64,000 nt of DNA from Propionimicrobium lymphophilum DSM 4903 (lineage in GTDB: Bacteria; Actinomycetota; Actinomycetes; Propionibacteriales; Propionibacteriaceae), in NCBI RefSeq assembly GCF_000423485.1, contig NZ_KE384026.1:233583-297582 (forward strand). Direction: 5' to 3'. A model generated the notes under the pieces. That model saw only the letters and a list, made by a program, of their open reading frames with translations, made no database searches and was not told where the DNA came from. Below, piece by piece: positions 36,063 to 63,040 of the stretch. The first letter of the stretch is position 1. Every line of letters begins with the position of its first letter. The position numbers were made by a program, and so were the translations under genes.

Positions 36063-36081
36063 CCAGCTTGGTGTGTTTGCA

Positions 36082-36087
36082 TAGAAT
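36082..36087 (+). promoter_or_regulatory. -10 element (TAGAAT) for the PAC2 gene, leaderless start
   Basis: TAGAAT ends 8 bases before ATG 36096, with no ribosome binding site between. Confidence 0.45.
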
Positions 36088-36095
36088 TGAAAATC

Positions 36096-36965
36096 ATGGC
36101 GTTGAAATTTGGTTTTGACGATCTCGACTCGTTGGGGTTGCGCTCTCCTGCGCTCATCGCTGCATTTAGTGGCTGGAACGATGCAGCGGAGGCAGCTAGC
36201 GACGTTCTCAATCATTTATCTGAGACCTACAAGGATACTTCCACGATTTGTCAGATTGATGGCGAGGATTTCTACGATTACCAAGTTAACCGCCCTAAGG
36301 TCGTGCGTGGTCCGGAAGGTGCCGCAACGATTTGGCCCGAAACAACTTTTCAGCTTGTTCGTACCCCGTTCAGGGATTTAATTCTTCTCGGTGGGCCGGA
36401 GCCAAACTTCAAATGGAAAACGTTCCTGAAGCAAGTGATGGAGAAAGTCGAGAGCTTGCATCCAAGCCAGGCAGTCATACTGGGAGCCATGCTCACGGAT
36501 TCGCCGCATTCAAGGCCGTTGCCTGTTCGCGTCTACAGTGATGACGCGGCTCTGCGAGATCGTCTTCGCTGTGAGGAGCCTACCTATGAGGGCCCAACGG
36601 GTATCCCAGGCATTTTACGTAGTAGCTTGCAGGCGGCTGGTATCCCTACCGTTTCGATGTGGGTATCTGTTCCGCATTATGTCGCTACGTCACCGAACCC
36701 CAAAGCGACTTTGGCTTTGATTCGCAAGATTTCTGACGCGCTAGACATTTGTCTAGGCGAAGCTGAGTTGCCTAAAAAAGCAGTCCAGTGGGAAAGAAAC
36801 GTTGAGATTGCCGCCGGCAGCGACCCAGACATTAGGGAATACGTGGATCGCTTGGAAGATCTTAAAGATACTGAAGACCTCAAAGAAAACACCGGCGACG
36901 AAATCGCCGATGAACTAGAACGGTTTTTGCGCCACCGCGACCAAAACGGCCACGGTGGCGACTAA
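36096..36965 (+). CDS. PAC2-family protein (289 aa)
   Basis: Member of the PAC2 (proteasome assembly chaperone 2-like) family common in actinobacteria. Visible blocks are PALIAAFSGWNDAAEAASDVLNHL near the N-terminus, DFYDYQVNRPKV near residue 60, LLGGPEPNFKWKTF near 97 and YEGPTGIPGILRSSLQAAGIPTVSMWVSVPHYVATSPNPKAT near 163-204. The C-terminus is an acidic coiled region. The biochemical function is not known. It converges on rpe with a gap of only 5 bp. Confidence 0.85.
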   Translation: MALKFGFDDLDSLGLRSPALIAAFSGWNDAAEAASDVLNHLSETYKDTSTICQIDGEDFYDYQVNRPKVVRGPEGAATIWPETTFQLVRTPFRDLILLGGPEPNFKWKTFLKQVMEKVESLHPSQAVILGAMLTDSPHSRPLPVRVYSDDAALRDRLRCEEPTYEGPTGIPGILRSSLQAAGIPTVSMWVSVPHYVATSPNPKATLALIRKISDALDICLGEAELPKKAVQWERNVEIAAGSDPDIREYVDRLEDLKDTEDLKENTGDEIADELERFLRHRDQNGHGGD

Positions 36966-36970
36966 AAGAA

Positions 36971-37627
36971 TTACTTAACTGCTTCTTCTGCCTTCTGGCG
37001 CAGGTCGTTTACCATCTTGTCTGGGTCGTCTGCCTTGTAGATGGCGGATCCAGCTACGAAGGTATCTGCGCCCGCTTCAGCGCAACGCTCGATCGTTTCG
37101 AGCGAAACTCCGCCGTCGACCTGGATCCAGATTTCTTTACCTGCTGCCTCTACCAACTTTCGAGTTCGGCGAATCTTGGGGAGAACCAGATCTAAGAACT
37201 TTTGGCCTCCGAATCCTGGTTCAACTGTCATGAGCAGGATCATGTCTAGTTCGTTGATCATGTCAGCATACGGTTCGATGGGAGTGGCGGGCTTCAACGC
37301 CATCGAAACTCGGGCTCCCTCTTTTCTGATTTCCCGAGCCAACCTAATCGGGGCGTTTGAAGCCTCAACGTGAAAAGTGACTGATTCACAGCCCGCCTCA
37401 GCGAAAGCCGGAGCCCAGGTGTCCGGATTATCAATCATTAGGTGAATATCCATGGGCAGGTCGGTGTGATCCCTCAGCGCCTCAACCACTGGCAGCCCCA
37501 GGGTCATGTTAGGAACGAAGTGGTTATCCATCACGTCAACGTGAACGCCATCAGCGCTAGGAATGCGGGCAACCTCGCCGGCAATGTTAGCTAGATCTGC
37601 ATTTAGAATGCTGGGTGTAATACGCAT
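36971..37627 (-). CDS. rpe: Ribulose-phosphate 3-epimerase (218 aa)
   Basis: Pentose phosphate pathway TIM-barrel enzyme. [16 protein letters not shown], the metal-site [41 protein letters not shown] and [11 protein letters not shown] are all present and in order. The length is typical. The start lacks a ribosome binding site; TAGAGT ends 6 bases upstream on the minus strand. Divergent from metH. Confidence 0.95.
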
Positions 37628-37633
37628 GTGTTA

Positions 37634-37639
37634 ACTCTA
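37634..37639 (-). promoter_or_regulatory. -10 element (TAGAGT) for rpe, leaderless start
   Basis: Read on the minus strand, TAGAGT ends 6 bases before ATG 37627, in the 62-bp gap shared with metH. Confidence 0.45.
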
Positions 37640-37670
37640 ATGCCAAACGCATTAGTAAGCCCCTTGGGCG

Positions 37671-37689
37671 GCCAACTAGTCTAGTTGGC
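37671..37689. promoter_or_regulatory. Perfect inverted repeat over the metH -10 and start
   Basis: GCCAACTA (37671-37678), GTC, TAGTTGGC (37682-37689): 8-bp perfect arms ending one base before GTG 37690. The putative metH -10 (TAGTCT, 37677-37682; 7 bases before the start) lies across the dyad centre, so a protein bound here would block metH. It could equally be an operator for the divergent rpe-metH pair. Confidence 0.5.
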
Positions 37690-40600
37690 GTGCATTTATC
37701 TGATGTTTTATTCAGCAAAGTTCTGCTAGCCGATGGAGCGATGGGGACGATGCTGCAAGCTGCAGACATCAAATCTGAGGATTTTGAAGGACTTGAGGGC
37801 TGCAATGAGGTGCTTAACCGCACCCGACCCGATGTAGTTAAGGACATTCATCGTGCCTATTTCGAGGCAGGAAGCGATCTGGTTGAGACCAACTCCTTCG
37901 GCACGAACTTGGCTGCACTCGCCGAATATGGAATCGAAGACCAGATAGACGATCTGGCATTTCGTGCGGCGAAACTAGCCAGAGAAACAGCTGACGAATT
38001 CTCGACGGAGCAGTGGCCGAGATTCGTTTTGGGTAGTGTCGGGCCTGGCACTAAGTTGCCTACGCTTGGACAAATCGATTTCGCTGATATGCGTGACGCT
38101 TATTACACGCAGATATCTGCGATGATTCGCGGTGGTATCGACGCGGTCCAGATCGAGACCGCGCAGGATCTTCTTCAGGCTAAGGCAGCTGTCATCGCAG
38201 CTAAACGCGCTAGGTCGGACGCAAACATTGACCTCCCAATTTTTGTTTCCGTAACAGTCGAGACCACTGGAACTATGCTTCTTGGATCTGAGATTGGTGC
38301 CGCACTATGCGCTCTCGAGCCGCTTGGCGTCGACATTCTCGGATTGAACTGTGCTACTGGGCCCACAGAGATGAGGGAATATCTTCGCTACCTATCTAGA
38401 AACTCGAAGATGGGTGTTTCTGCAATGCCTAACGCGGGTCTTCCACAGTTGACATCACAAGGAGCGGTATACGATCTTACTCCCGATCAGCTGGCGAAAG
38501 CCCTTAGCGAATTTATTGCCGAAGACGGTTTGTGCCTGGTCGGTGGATGCTGCGGCACCACACCCGAGCACATTCGAATGGTTCGTGAGGCCATTGGTGA
38601 TAACCACCCGTTAAAAGACCGAGTAGTAAAGAAAATGAACTCGGTTTCATCTCTTTACTCTGACGTTCCGCTTAAGCAGGATACTAGCTACCTCACAATT
38701 GGCGAGCGTACGAATGCCAACGGTTCGAAGGCGTTTAGAGAGGCGATGCTGGAGGGCAATTGGGACGAGTGCCTCGACATCGCCAGGGGACAGCTGCGTC
38801 AGGGGGCGCACGTTCTTGACCTGTGCGTCGACTACGTGGGTCGCGATGGATCGCAAGATATGTCTTACGCTGCAGCCAGATTCGCCACGTCCGTCACACT
38901 GCCGTTGATGCTGGACTCCACCGAGCCCGCAGTAATTGAAGCGGGGCTGAATAAACTTGCTGGACGATGCATCGTAAACTCTGTTAACTACGAAGACGGC
39001 GATGGCCCGGATTCTCGTTTTAACAAAATAATGAAGCTGGTCAGCGAACACGGTTCAGCCGTGGTTGCGCTGACCATTGATGAAAACGGTCAGGCGAGAA
39101 CCGCAGACCATAAGGTCGAGGTTGCAGAGCGACTGATTAAAGATCTGACGGAAAACTGGGGGATGGATGAGGGAGATATCCTTGTCGACTGCCTTACATT
39201 CCCGATTGCGACAGGTGCCGACGAAACCCGTCGCGATGGCATCGAAACCATCGAGGCCATTCGGCGGCTAAAAGAATCTCATCCGCGAGTAGGCACTACT
39301 CTTGGCCTTTCAAACATCAGCTTCGGTCTGAACCCCGCTGCCCGAGTCGTGCTGAATAGTGTGTTTTTAGATGAATGCGTCAAAGCAGGGCTGGATTCTG
39401 CGATCGTTTCCGTCGCAAAAATTATGCCGTTAGATCAGATCGAGCCGCGTCAGGTCGAAGTGGCATTAGACCTCATATATGACCGACGCAAAGATGGTTA
39501 CGATCCTCTAAGCGAGATGCTGACGCTATTCGAGAACGTCTCTAAGGCAGACGTTAAAGCTGGGCGTGAAGCAAAGCTGAGCTCCATGCCGCTGAACGAA
39601 CGGCTTGGGCAGAGAATCATCGATGGTAACGATAAGGGTCTCGAAGATGACCTCGACCTTGCCATGAAAGAAAAAGAACCCATTGAAATCATCAATGAGG
39701 ACCTTCTTTCGGGCATGAAAACCGTTGGTGAATTATTCGGCGCAGGAAAGATGCAGCTTCCATTCGTGCTAGCGGCAGCTGAAACCATGAAGAGAGCTGT
39801 AGCGTATCTTGAACCGCACATGACATCGGACGAGCAGGCGACCTCGAAGGGAACGCTTGTCCTAGCAACGGTTAAAGGCGATGTACACGACATTGGTAAA
39901 AACCTTGTTGACATCATCGTAAGCAATAACGGATACACCGTAGTCAATTTAGGCATTAAGCAACCTATTTCCTCAATCGTCGAGGCCGCTGAAAAGCACC
40001 ACGCAGATGCAATCGGCATGAGTGGATTGCTCGTTAAGTCGACAATGGTGATGCGAGACAATCTAGAAGAGTTGAATGTTAGAGGCCTTTCTAAGTATCC
40101 GGTGATTCTTGGAGGAGCAGCGCTGACTCGAACGTTCGTTGACGAAGATCTGACCGCTTTGTACAAGGGCACTGTTAAGTACGCCAAGGACGCGTTTGAG
40201 GGTCTGACTCTGATGAACACCATCATGGACATCAAGGCTGGAAAACCTGGTGCGGAGCTGCCCGAGCCTAGGAAACGGCGAGTGAAAAAGGTAGCTAAGA
40301 AGAATACCGAGCATTCAACCGAACGCTCAGAGGTAGCCCGCGGTGTCCCTGTCCCTGAACCTCCGTTCTATGGAAATCGTGTTCTAAAAGGGATGACGCT
40401 TTCAGACGTTGTCGAATGGCTTGACGAGAAGGCAACGCTCATGGGCCGCTGGGGCCTGCGAGGAACCAGAGACGGGATGACCTATGAACAGCTAGCTCAG
40501 AGTGAGGGGCGGCCTCGGCTCAGGGGACTTTTGGAAACTCTGCAGTCAGAAAAGCTTCTCGACTTCGGCGTCGTATACGGCTATTACCCGTGTTTTTCAG

Positions 40601-41157
40601 AGGGCGAAGATCTGATCGTTTGCGATCCAGATACCAAGAATGAACTTTTCACTTGGACATTTCCTCGCCAGAACGGTAATCGCAGATTGTGCATTCCAGA
40701 TTTCTTTCGCGATAGGCAGGAAGCTGAAAAGCAAGGTCTAGACGTAATCGGTCTTCAGATAGTTACCATCGGAAGCAAGGCCAGCGAAAAGACGGCCGAG
40801 ATGTACGCAAAAAATGAGTACCGCGCATATCTGGAGATGCATGGACTTTCCTGTCAGCTTGCAGAAGCACTTGCCGAATGGGCTCACCATCGGATCCGTC
40901 AGGAACTAGGCATTGCTGGTGAGGACGGGGAAATCGAAGCCCAGGTAGCTAAGCAGGCTTATCAGGGAAGCCGATATAGCTTCGGCTATGGCGCATGCCC
41001 AGATTTGCATATGCGAAGGCAAATCGTCGATGCGCTAGACGCCGAGCGAATTGGTGTTCACCTATCTGAGGAGTACCAGCTGGATCCTGAACAATCCACA
41101 GATGCATTTGTTGTGCACCACAAAGAGGCTAAGTATTTCTCCACTATGAAGGACTGA
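37690..41157 (+). CDS. metH: Cobalamin-dependent methionine synthase (1155 aa)
   Basis: Methylates homocysteine from methyl-THF through B12. Domains in order: homocysteine-binding barrel (1-300; zinc ligands at GLNC and GGCCGTTPEH), pterin-binding barrel (about 330-600; IGERTNANGSKAFREAML), B12 cap and Rossmann domain (about 640-860; DVHDIGKNLVDII supplies the cobalt-ligating histidine), then the activation domain (about 930-1155; GSRYSFGYGACPDLHMRRQIV). All modules are present, so the enzyme should be complete. A short basic linker (KRRVKKVAKK) precedes the activation domain. GTG 37690 has no ribosome binding site; the gap to rpe is too short for a B12 riboswitch. Confidence 0.96.
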   Translation: MHLSDVLFSKVLLADGAMGTMLQAADIKSEDFEGLEGCNEVLNRTRPDVVKDIHRAYFEAGSDLVETNSFGTNLAALAEYGIEDQIDDLAFRAAKLARETADEFSTEQWPRFVLGSVGPGTKLPTLGQIDFADMRDAYYTQISAMIRGGIDAVQIETAQDLLQAKAAVIAAKRARSDANIDLPIFVSVTVETTGTMLLGSEIGAALCALEPLGVDILGLNCATGPTEMREYLRYLSRNSKMGVSAMPNAGLPQLTSQGAVYDLTPDQLAKALSEFIAEDGLCLVGGCCGTTPEHIRMVREAIGDNHPLKDRVVKKMNSVSSLYSDVPLKQDTSYLTIGERTNANGSKAFREAMLEGNWDECLDIARGQLRQGAHVLDLCVDYVGRDGSQDMSYAAARFATSVTLPLMLDSTEPAVIEAGLNKLAGRCIVNSVNYEDGDGPDSRFNKIMKLVSEHGSAVVALTIDENGQARTADHKVEVAERLIKDLTENWGMDEGDILVDCLTFPIATGADETRRDGIETIEAIRRLKESHPRVGTTLGLSNISFGLNPAARVVLNSVFLDECVKAGLDSAIVSVAKIMPLDQIEPRQVEVALDLIYDRRKDGYDPLSEMLTLFENVSKADVKAGREAKLSSMPLNERLGQRIIDGNDKGLEDDLDLAMKEKEPIEIINEDLLSGMKTVGELFGAGKMQLPFVLAAAETMKRAVAYLEPHMTSDEQATSKGTLVLATVKGDVHDIGKNLVDIIVSNNGYTVVNLGIKQPISSIVEAAEKHHADAIGMSGLLVKSTMVMRDNLEELNVRGLSKYPVILGGAALTRTFVDEDLTALYKGTVKYAKDAFEGLTLMNTIMDIKAGKPGAELPEPRKRRVKKVAKKNTEHSTERSEVARGVPVPEPPFYGNRVLKGMTLSDVVEWLDEKATLMGRWGLRGTRDGMTYEQLAQSEGRPRLRGLLETLQSEKLLDFGVVYGYYPCFSEGEDLIVCDPDTKNELFTWTFPRQNGNRRLCIPDFFRDRQEAEKQGLDVIGLQIVTIGSKASEKTAEMYAKNEYRAYLEMHGLSCQLAEALAEWAHHRIRQELGIAGEDGEIEAQVAKQAYQGSRYSFGYGACPDLHMRRQIVDALDAERIGVHLSEEYQLDPEQSTDAFVVHHKEAKYFSTMKD

Positions 41158-62276: not shown

Positions 62277-62310
62277 AAAGTCTGGCTCGAGAATTCTCGA
62301 GCCAGACTTT
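62277..62310. terminator. Bidirectional terminator: perfect 34-bp palindrome
   Basis: Bases 62277-62293 and 62294-62310 are exact inverted copies (17-bp arms, no spacer), with A/T-rich outer ends. It serves lpd (plus) and the convergent YigZ gene (minus), whose stop codon begins at the last base of the palindrome. Confidence 0.9.
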
Positions 62311-62980: not shown

Positions 62981-63020
62981 AAAAAATAATGGTGGTTAGC
63001 CCCAGCTGGGGCTAACCACC
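62981..63020 (-). terminator. Rho-independent terminator of metQ
   Basis: Bases 62991-63005 and 63006-63020 are exact inverted copies (15-bp arms). Read on the minus strand the stem is followed by ATTATTTTTTG, a good U-tract. Confidence 0.9.
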
Positions 63021-63040
63021 AAAATATTAGCTATCACAAA

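Follow-up and report, generated by a model that had tools for sequence, protein, structure and literature searches.

Does the perfect palindrome that covers the promoter of a methionine synthase gene, and runs right up to its start codon, mark the binding site of a regulator, or can it be understood as part of an ordinary promoter? The palindrome lies at positions 37671-37689 of the window, by which we mean the whole 64,000-nucleotide stretch analysed here, and reads GCCAACTAGTCTAGTTGGC. An earlier sequence-only reading had described it as an 8-3-8 repeat and proposed that it could serve as an operator able to shut off methionine synthase. The palindrome is real and perfect, but its arms are slightly longer than that reading had them: because the outer loop bases, G and C, pair as well, it is a perfect 9-1-9 inverted repeat, GCCAACTAG-T-CTAGTTGGC, centred on position 37680 and belonging to neither strand. 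It occupies the final 19 bases of the 62-bp gap (37628-37689) between the divergent genes rpe and metH and abuts the metH GTG at 37690, so the coordinates agree with the placement beside the start codon that had been reported.

The metH gene (37690-41157, plus strand) encodes a cobalamin-dependent methionine synthase, as judged from TIGR02082 (1368 bits, cut-off 1011) and its Pfam domains, and has a GTG start with an expected +1 at 37690. Beneath the palindrome lies the predicted -10 element of a leaderless promoter, TAGTCT (37677-37682, plus strand), followed by a gap of 7 nt and then the GTG. This layout, which had also been proposed from the sequence alone, holds up well in comparison: when 60 metH orthologues were sampled from the 177 family genomes that gave a match, 58 proved to have a TANNNT preceding an in-frame start by 6-8 nt, with a spacing of 7 nt in 29 of them, 6 nt in 20 and 8 nt in nine. 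When the 40 upstream bases were shuffled, the mean was 1.5 and the maximum 7 of 60. Both features by which a leaderless layout is recognised, TANNNT at 6-8 nt and a position conserved among orthologues, are therefore found at metH. Since the layout is conserved, the metH mRNA is expected to be leaderless and probably starts at the GTG, which would place the dyad in the DNA at -19 to -1, outside the message; a transcription start far upstream would run counter to what the conserved promoter predicts. Leaderless promoters of this kind are known from Actinobacteria, with TANNNT some 12 bp upstream of the start codon (PMC3160421), and among mapped leaderless mRNAs of Propionibacterium acnes a GUG start was found in 29% (PMC3848588). 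The metH promoter resembles these in the position of TANNNT and in the acceptance of GTG, and differs in that its -10 is embedded in a perfect 19-bp dyad. A window-wide test for leaderless starts was weakly positive (22 of 54 crude frames, against a shuffled mean of 12.4 and maximum of 20). A simple scan detected neither an intrinsic terminator nor a sigma-70 consensus promoter at the dyad, and the titles and abstract openings of the literature searched contained nothing on it.

The palindrome itself behaves very differently from the -10 element that it surrounds. At no more than one mismatch it is absent from all 197 other family genomes, among which no genome of the same genus was found, and it is thus not conserved upstream of metH orthologues at the family level, as an operator had been expected to be. 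At up to two mismatches 22 of 198 family genomes match, all of them with exactly two mismatches except for the full copy in the window, and over the listed family genomes, without summing, the reversed control matches more often than the dyad does. None of the family match loci that were fetched contained metH or rpe (three sites had no locus attached). In the 58 relatives a mean of 3.2 of the nine pairs form at the homologous centre, with a best of six, and in none of the 58 does the best dyad near the start exceed its own shuffles at the 5% level. One relative, G012, is informative in another way: it reads GCCAACTATTCT, then 7 nt, then ATG, sharing the left arm and the -10 (11 of 12 bases) but lacking the right arm. 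Among the 61 promoters compared, no other shows such sharing, and GCCAACTA-N-TCT directly at the -10 is common only to the window and G012. By rpe (83%) and rsmB (65%) G012 is the closest of the compared stretches, but not by MetH, where it has 68% against 70% for G102. A plasmid search returned 20 records with partial matches at 60-80% identity, some of the five listed being annotated as metH, and a scan of genome contigs returned four distant metH loci (Serinibacter, Agromyces, a Micrococcales MAG and a MAG labelled Acidobacteria).

We favour, with moderate confidence, an ordinary leaderless metH promoter whose -10 has become symmetric in this lineage. A sigma-A-type RNA polymerase, presumably with the housekeeping sigma factor, would recognise TAGTCT and begin transcription at the G of the metH GTG, producing an mRNA without a leader while the dyad stays wholly in the DNA. 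The start site and the sigma factor are what we infer; the sequence, and the conservation of the promoter layout in relatives, are what we observe. The perfect symmetry around the -10 would then be a lineage-specific addition needing no dedicated regulator, since any TANNNT already pairs its A2 with its T6 about the centre and since G012 carries the left arm and the -10 without the right arm. This symmetry may be fortuitous, or it may allow the polymerase to start on the other strand as well, towards rpe. The palindrome is probably an ordinary feature, and nothing at the metH promoter calls for a new kind of system: its conserved part is already known and its unconserved part is unproven. The locus illustrates how a leaderless -10 can be deeply conserved even though the striking palindrome around it is not.

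The other side of the gap has a promoter and a dyad of its own. The rpe gene (36971-37627, minus strand) encodes ribulose-phosphate 3-epimerase (TIGR01163, 260 bits, cut-off 213), and TAGAGT (37634-37639, minus strand), 6 nt before its ATG, is the -10 of a probable leaderless promoter; TANNNT stands 6-7 nt before an in-frame rpe start in all eight relatives that were read by eye. A second perfect dyad, CTAATGC-N5-GCATTAG (7-5-7; 37637-37655, neither strand), overlaps the first three bases of this -10. It lies in the same 62-bp gap as the metH dyad and was missing from the sequence-only reading. When one mismatch is allowed, the genome still has a single copy; when two are allowed, it has two sites against seven for the reversed control. 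Of the 198 family genomes, no other has an exact copy, and three others contain it with one mismatch.

How surprising these dyads are depends on what is counted. A perfect dyad with arms of at least 9 and a loop of at most 8 appeared in 0.24% of 20,000 dinucleotide shuffles of the gap, and both dyads together in none of the 20,000. Over the roughly 50 gaps of the window, an estimate resting on its 54 crude open frames, about 0.1 dyads of the first kind would be expected by chance, which is suggestive rather than decisive. The window as a whole holds seven such dyads where a Markov model predicts 1.75 (20 runs, largest 5), and three of the seven are long (arms 16-17) and lie in sequence without open-frame cover. 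The probability of perfect pairing centred exactly on the -10 is about 1.5e-5 per promoter, a figure computed with A2-T6 as free, since that pair comes with any TANNNT.

The gene order also appears to be peculiar to this lineage. The window runs rsmB, a PAC2-family gene forward (36096-36965, plus strand; PF09754, 156 bits), rpe reverse and then metH. In the stretch upstream of metH, 45 of the 60 relatives carry a PAC2-family gene on the opposite strand (within 260 nt in 43), and none carries rpe on that strand. The order rpe forward, PAC2 reverse, metH forward occurs in eight of 11 longer stretches; two others lack PAC2, with rpe and then metH on the same strand, and the remaining one showed only PAC2. 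Because the relatives have rpe forward and PAC2 reverse where the window has PAC2 forward and rpe reverse, synteny suggests that rpe and the PAC2-family gene were inverted together (36063-37689, between rsmB and metH), with one breakpoint in or near the 62-bp gap. At the breakpoints, the PAC2 and rpe promoter regions share a short, imperfect inverted similarity (score 22, reached by 0.85% of 2,000 shuffles), a likeness due in part to both being promoters that end in ATG.

Could the palindrome nevertheless be an operator used by this lineage alone? A dimeric repressor would bind the 19-bp dyad across the -10 up to -1 and block polymerase at metH, with the second dyad serving the same or another regulator at rpe. 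Repressors of the TetR or GntR type are examples with such a geometry. We regard this as possible but rather unlikely. The symmetry is perfect exactly over the -10, and the pair of perfect 19-bp dyads in one short gap is the best remaining evidence for regulation; however, the two dyads are unlike in sequence, the second was noticed only after the first, and the genes identified around them (fmt, rsmB, PAC2, rpe and metH) include no regulator. The genome-wide search is likewise divided. At up to three mismatches there are 19 sites against nine for the reversed control, but only one exact copy exists in the 2.04-Mb genome, from which it follows that the dyad is not at metK, metX or metQ, as had been stated before. 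The near matches consist of one site with two mismatches and 17 with three, and 17 of these 18 fall within stop-to-stop frames that are 80 aa or longer. The core, AACTANNNTAGTT, has one exact copy and, with that copy included, 11 sites when one mismatch is allowed, where its reversed control has 70, although two of the ten inexact sites (L147 and L150) precede what appear to be gene starts. The sole near match outside open frames, GCCAACTAGGCTAGAAGCC (L128:1001-1019, genome contig C7), overlies the miaA stop codon and stops 2 bp short of the hflX ATG, which TAGGCT precedes by 9 nt. There GCCAACTAGGCTAG, 7 bp before the ATG and over the miaA stop, repeats the left 14 bases of the metH site with 13 of 14 identical, in what looks like a promoter position. 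Its right end (AGAAGCC) is not complementary, so that only the left arm and the -10 recur, and the 14-base half pattern does not outnumber its reversed control when up to one mismatch is allowed (3 and 5 sites versus 6 and 8). Neither another gene nor a regulator gene in this genome thus carries the full dyad. An operator conserved in the family is rejected by the single genome copy, the lack of a family match at up to one mismatch, a core below its control and the absence of excess dyads in the 58 relatives, and the proposal that the palindrome can shut off methionine synthase is not supported, given also that G012 has no right arm. Operators can turn over fast, and one private to the genus, unsupported as it is, would be compatible with these searches, since the family and relatives searched include no genome of the same genus. 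Quite improbable, in our estimation, is a fuller version in which the inversion made rpe and metH divergent neighbours and the gap so created gained a private pair of dyad operators; by way of these, a regulator having few further targets, or none, would couple B12-dependent methionine synthesis with an enzyme of the pentose-phosphate pathway. As for known methionine regulators, the McbR consensus is TAGAC-N6-GTCTA. It has 20 matches in the window at up to two mismatches, where 18 are expected; none lies over 37671-37689, the nearest being at 37604-37619 inside rpe, and an McbR operator was rejected. In published accounts of McbR and CysR, regulator sites occur at promoters of methionine and cysteine genes, and the metH dyad too lies at such a promoter; CysR uses an inverted repeat. 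McbR sites often lie between -35 and -10, whereas the metH dyad has neither the McbR motif nor a regulon in the genome.

The symmetry could instead reflect transcription in both directions: TAGTCTA would act as a -10 for either strand, transcription would diverge from about 37689/37690 and 37671/37670, and the minus-strand RNA would run into rpe. On the same bases the opposite strand reads TAGACT (37678-37683, minus strand), a -10-like hexamer of putative activity, and in the TAGTCT/TAGACT overlap -11A and -7T coincide reciprocally, the geometry described for bidirectional promoters with starts 18 bp apart (PMC10268837). The likeness to such promoters (PMC10268837, PMC12825309) extends to predicted starts 18-20 bp apart, divergent starts at a distance of 7-25 bp being a mark of the class; the metH case differs from them in being predicted from sequence, in having symmetry that exceeds the -10 and in facing a gene with its own promoter. 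We consider this reading unlikely. With its own TAGAGT-N6-ATG, a layout kept in all eight relatives read by eye, rpe does not need a second-strand start, and any start from the metH side would possibly be a second, dispensable rpe promoter. Bidirectional initiation does not require the outer arms GCCAAC/GTTGGC either, and TANNNT followed by A occurs in only two of the 58 relatives. Should the symmetric -10 fire both ways, bidirectional initiation could be tested cleanly here, at a leaderless promoter from the Actinobacteria. Very improbable, finally, is an RNA hairpin that masks the start codon of metH within a longer message begun upstream. Folded as RNA, the region does reach z = -2.2 (four of 200 shuffles were as good), and the dyad would form an 8-bp stem beside the GTG, but the conserved layout is leaderless, with transcription expected to begin at the GTG itself and the dyad left outside the mRNA, and no Rfam family scored over its cut-off there. 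A riboswitch at metH was rejected: at the curated cut-offs, a tRNA is the window's single Rfam match.

Several further features deserve mention. The genome has six matches to the cobalamin riboswitch (L156-L161), five of them over the cut-off, on contigs C1 and C3, and none at the B12-dependent metH (C2). The PAC2-family gene has TAGAAT 8 nt before its ATG (36082-36098) and may for that reason be leaderless too. Elsewhere in the window, a perfect 17-0 inverted repeat at 62277-62310, perhaps a terminator, and a perfect 16-0 repeat at 62990-63021 lie in sequence without open-frame cover, and a 17-4 inverted repeat at 377-414, set between runs of A and T, is terminator-like.
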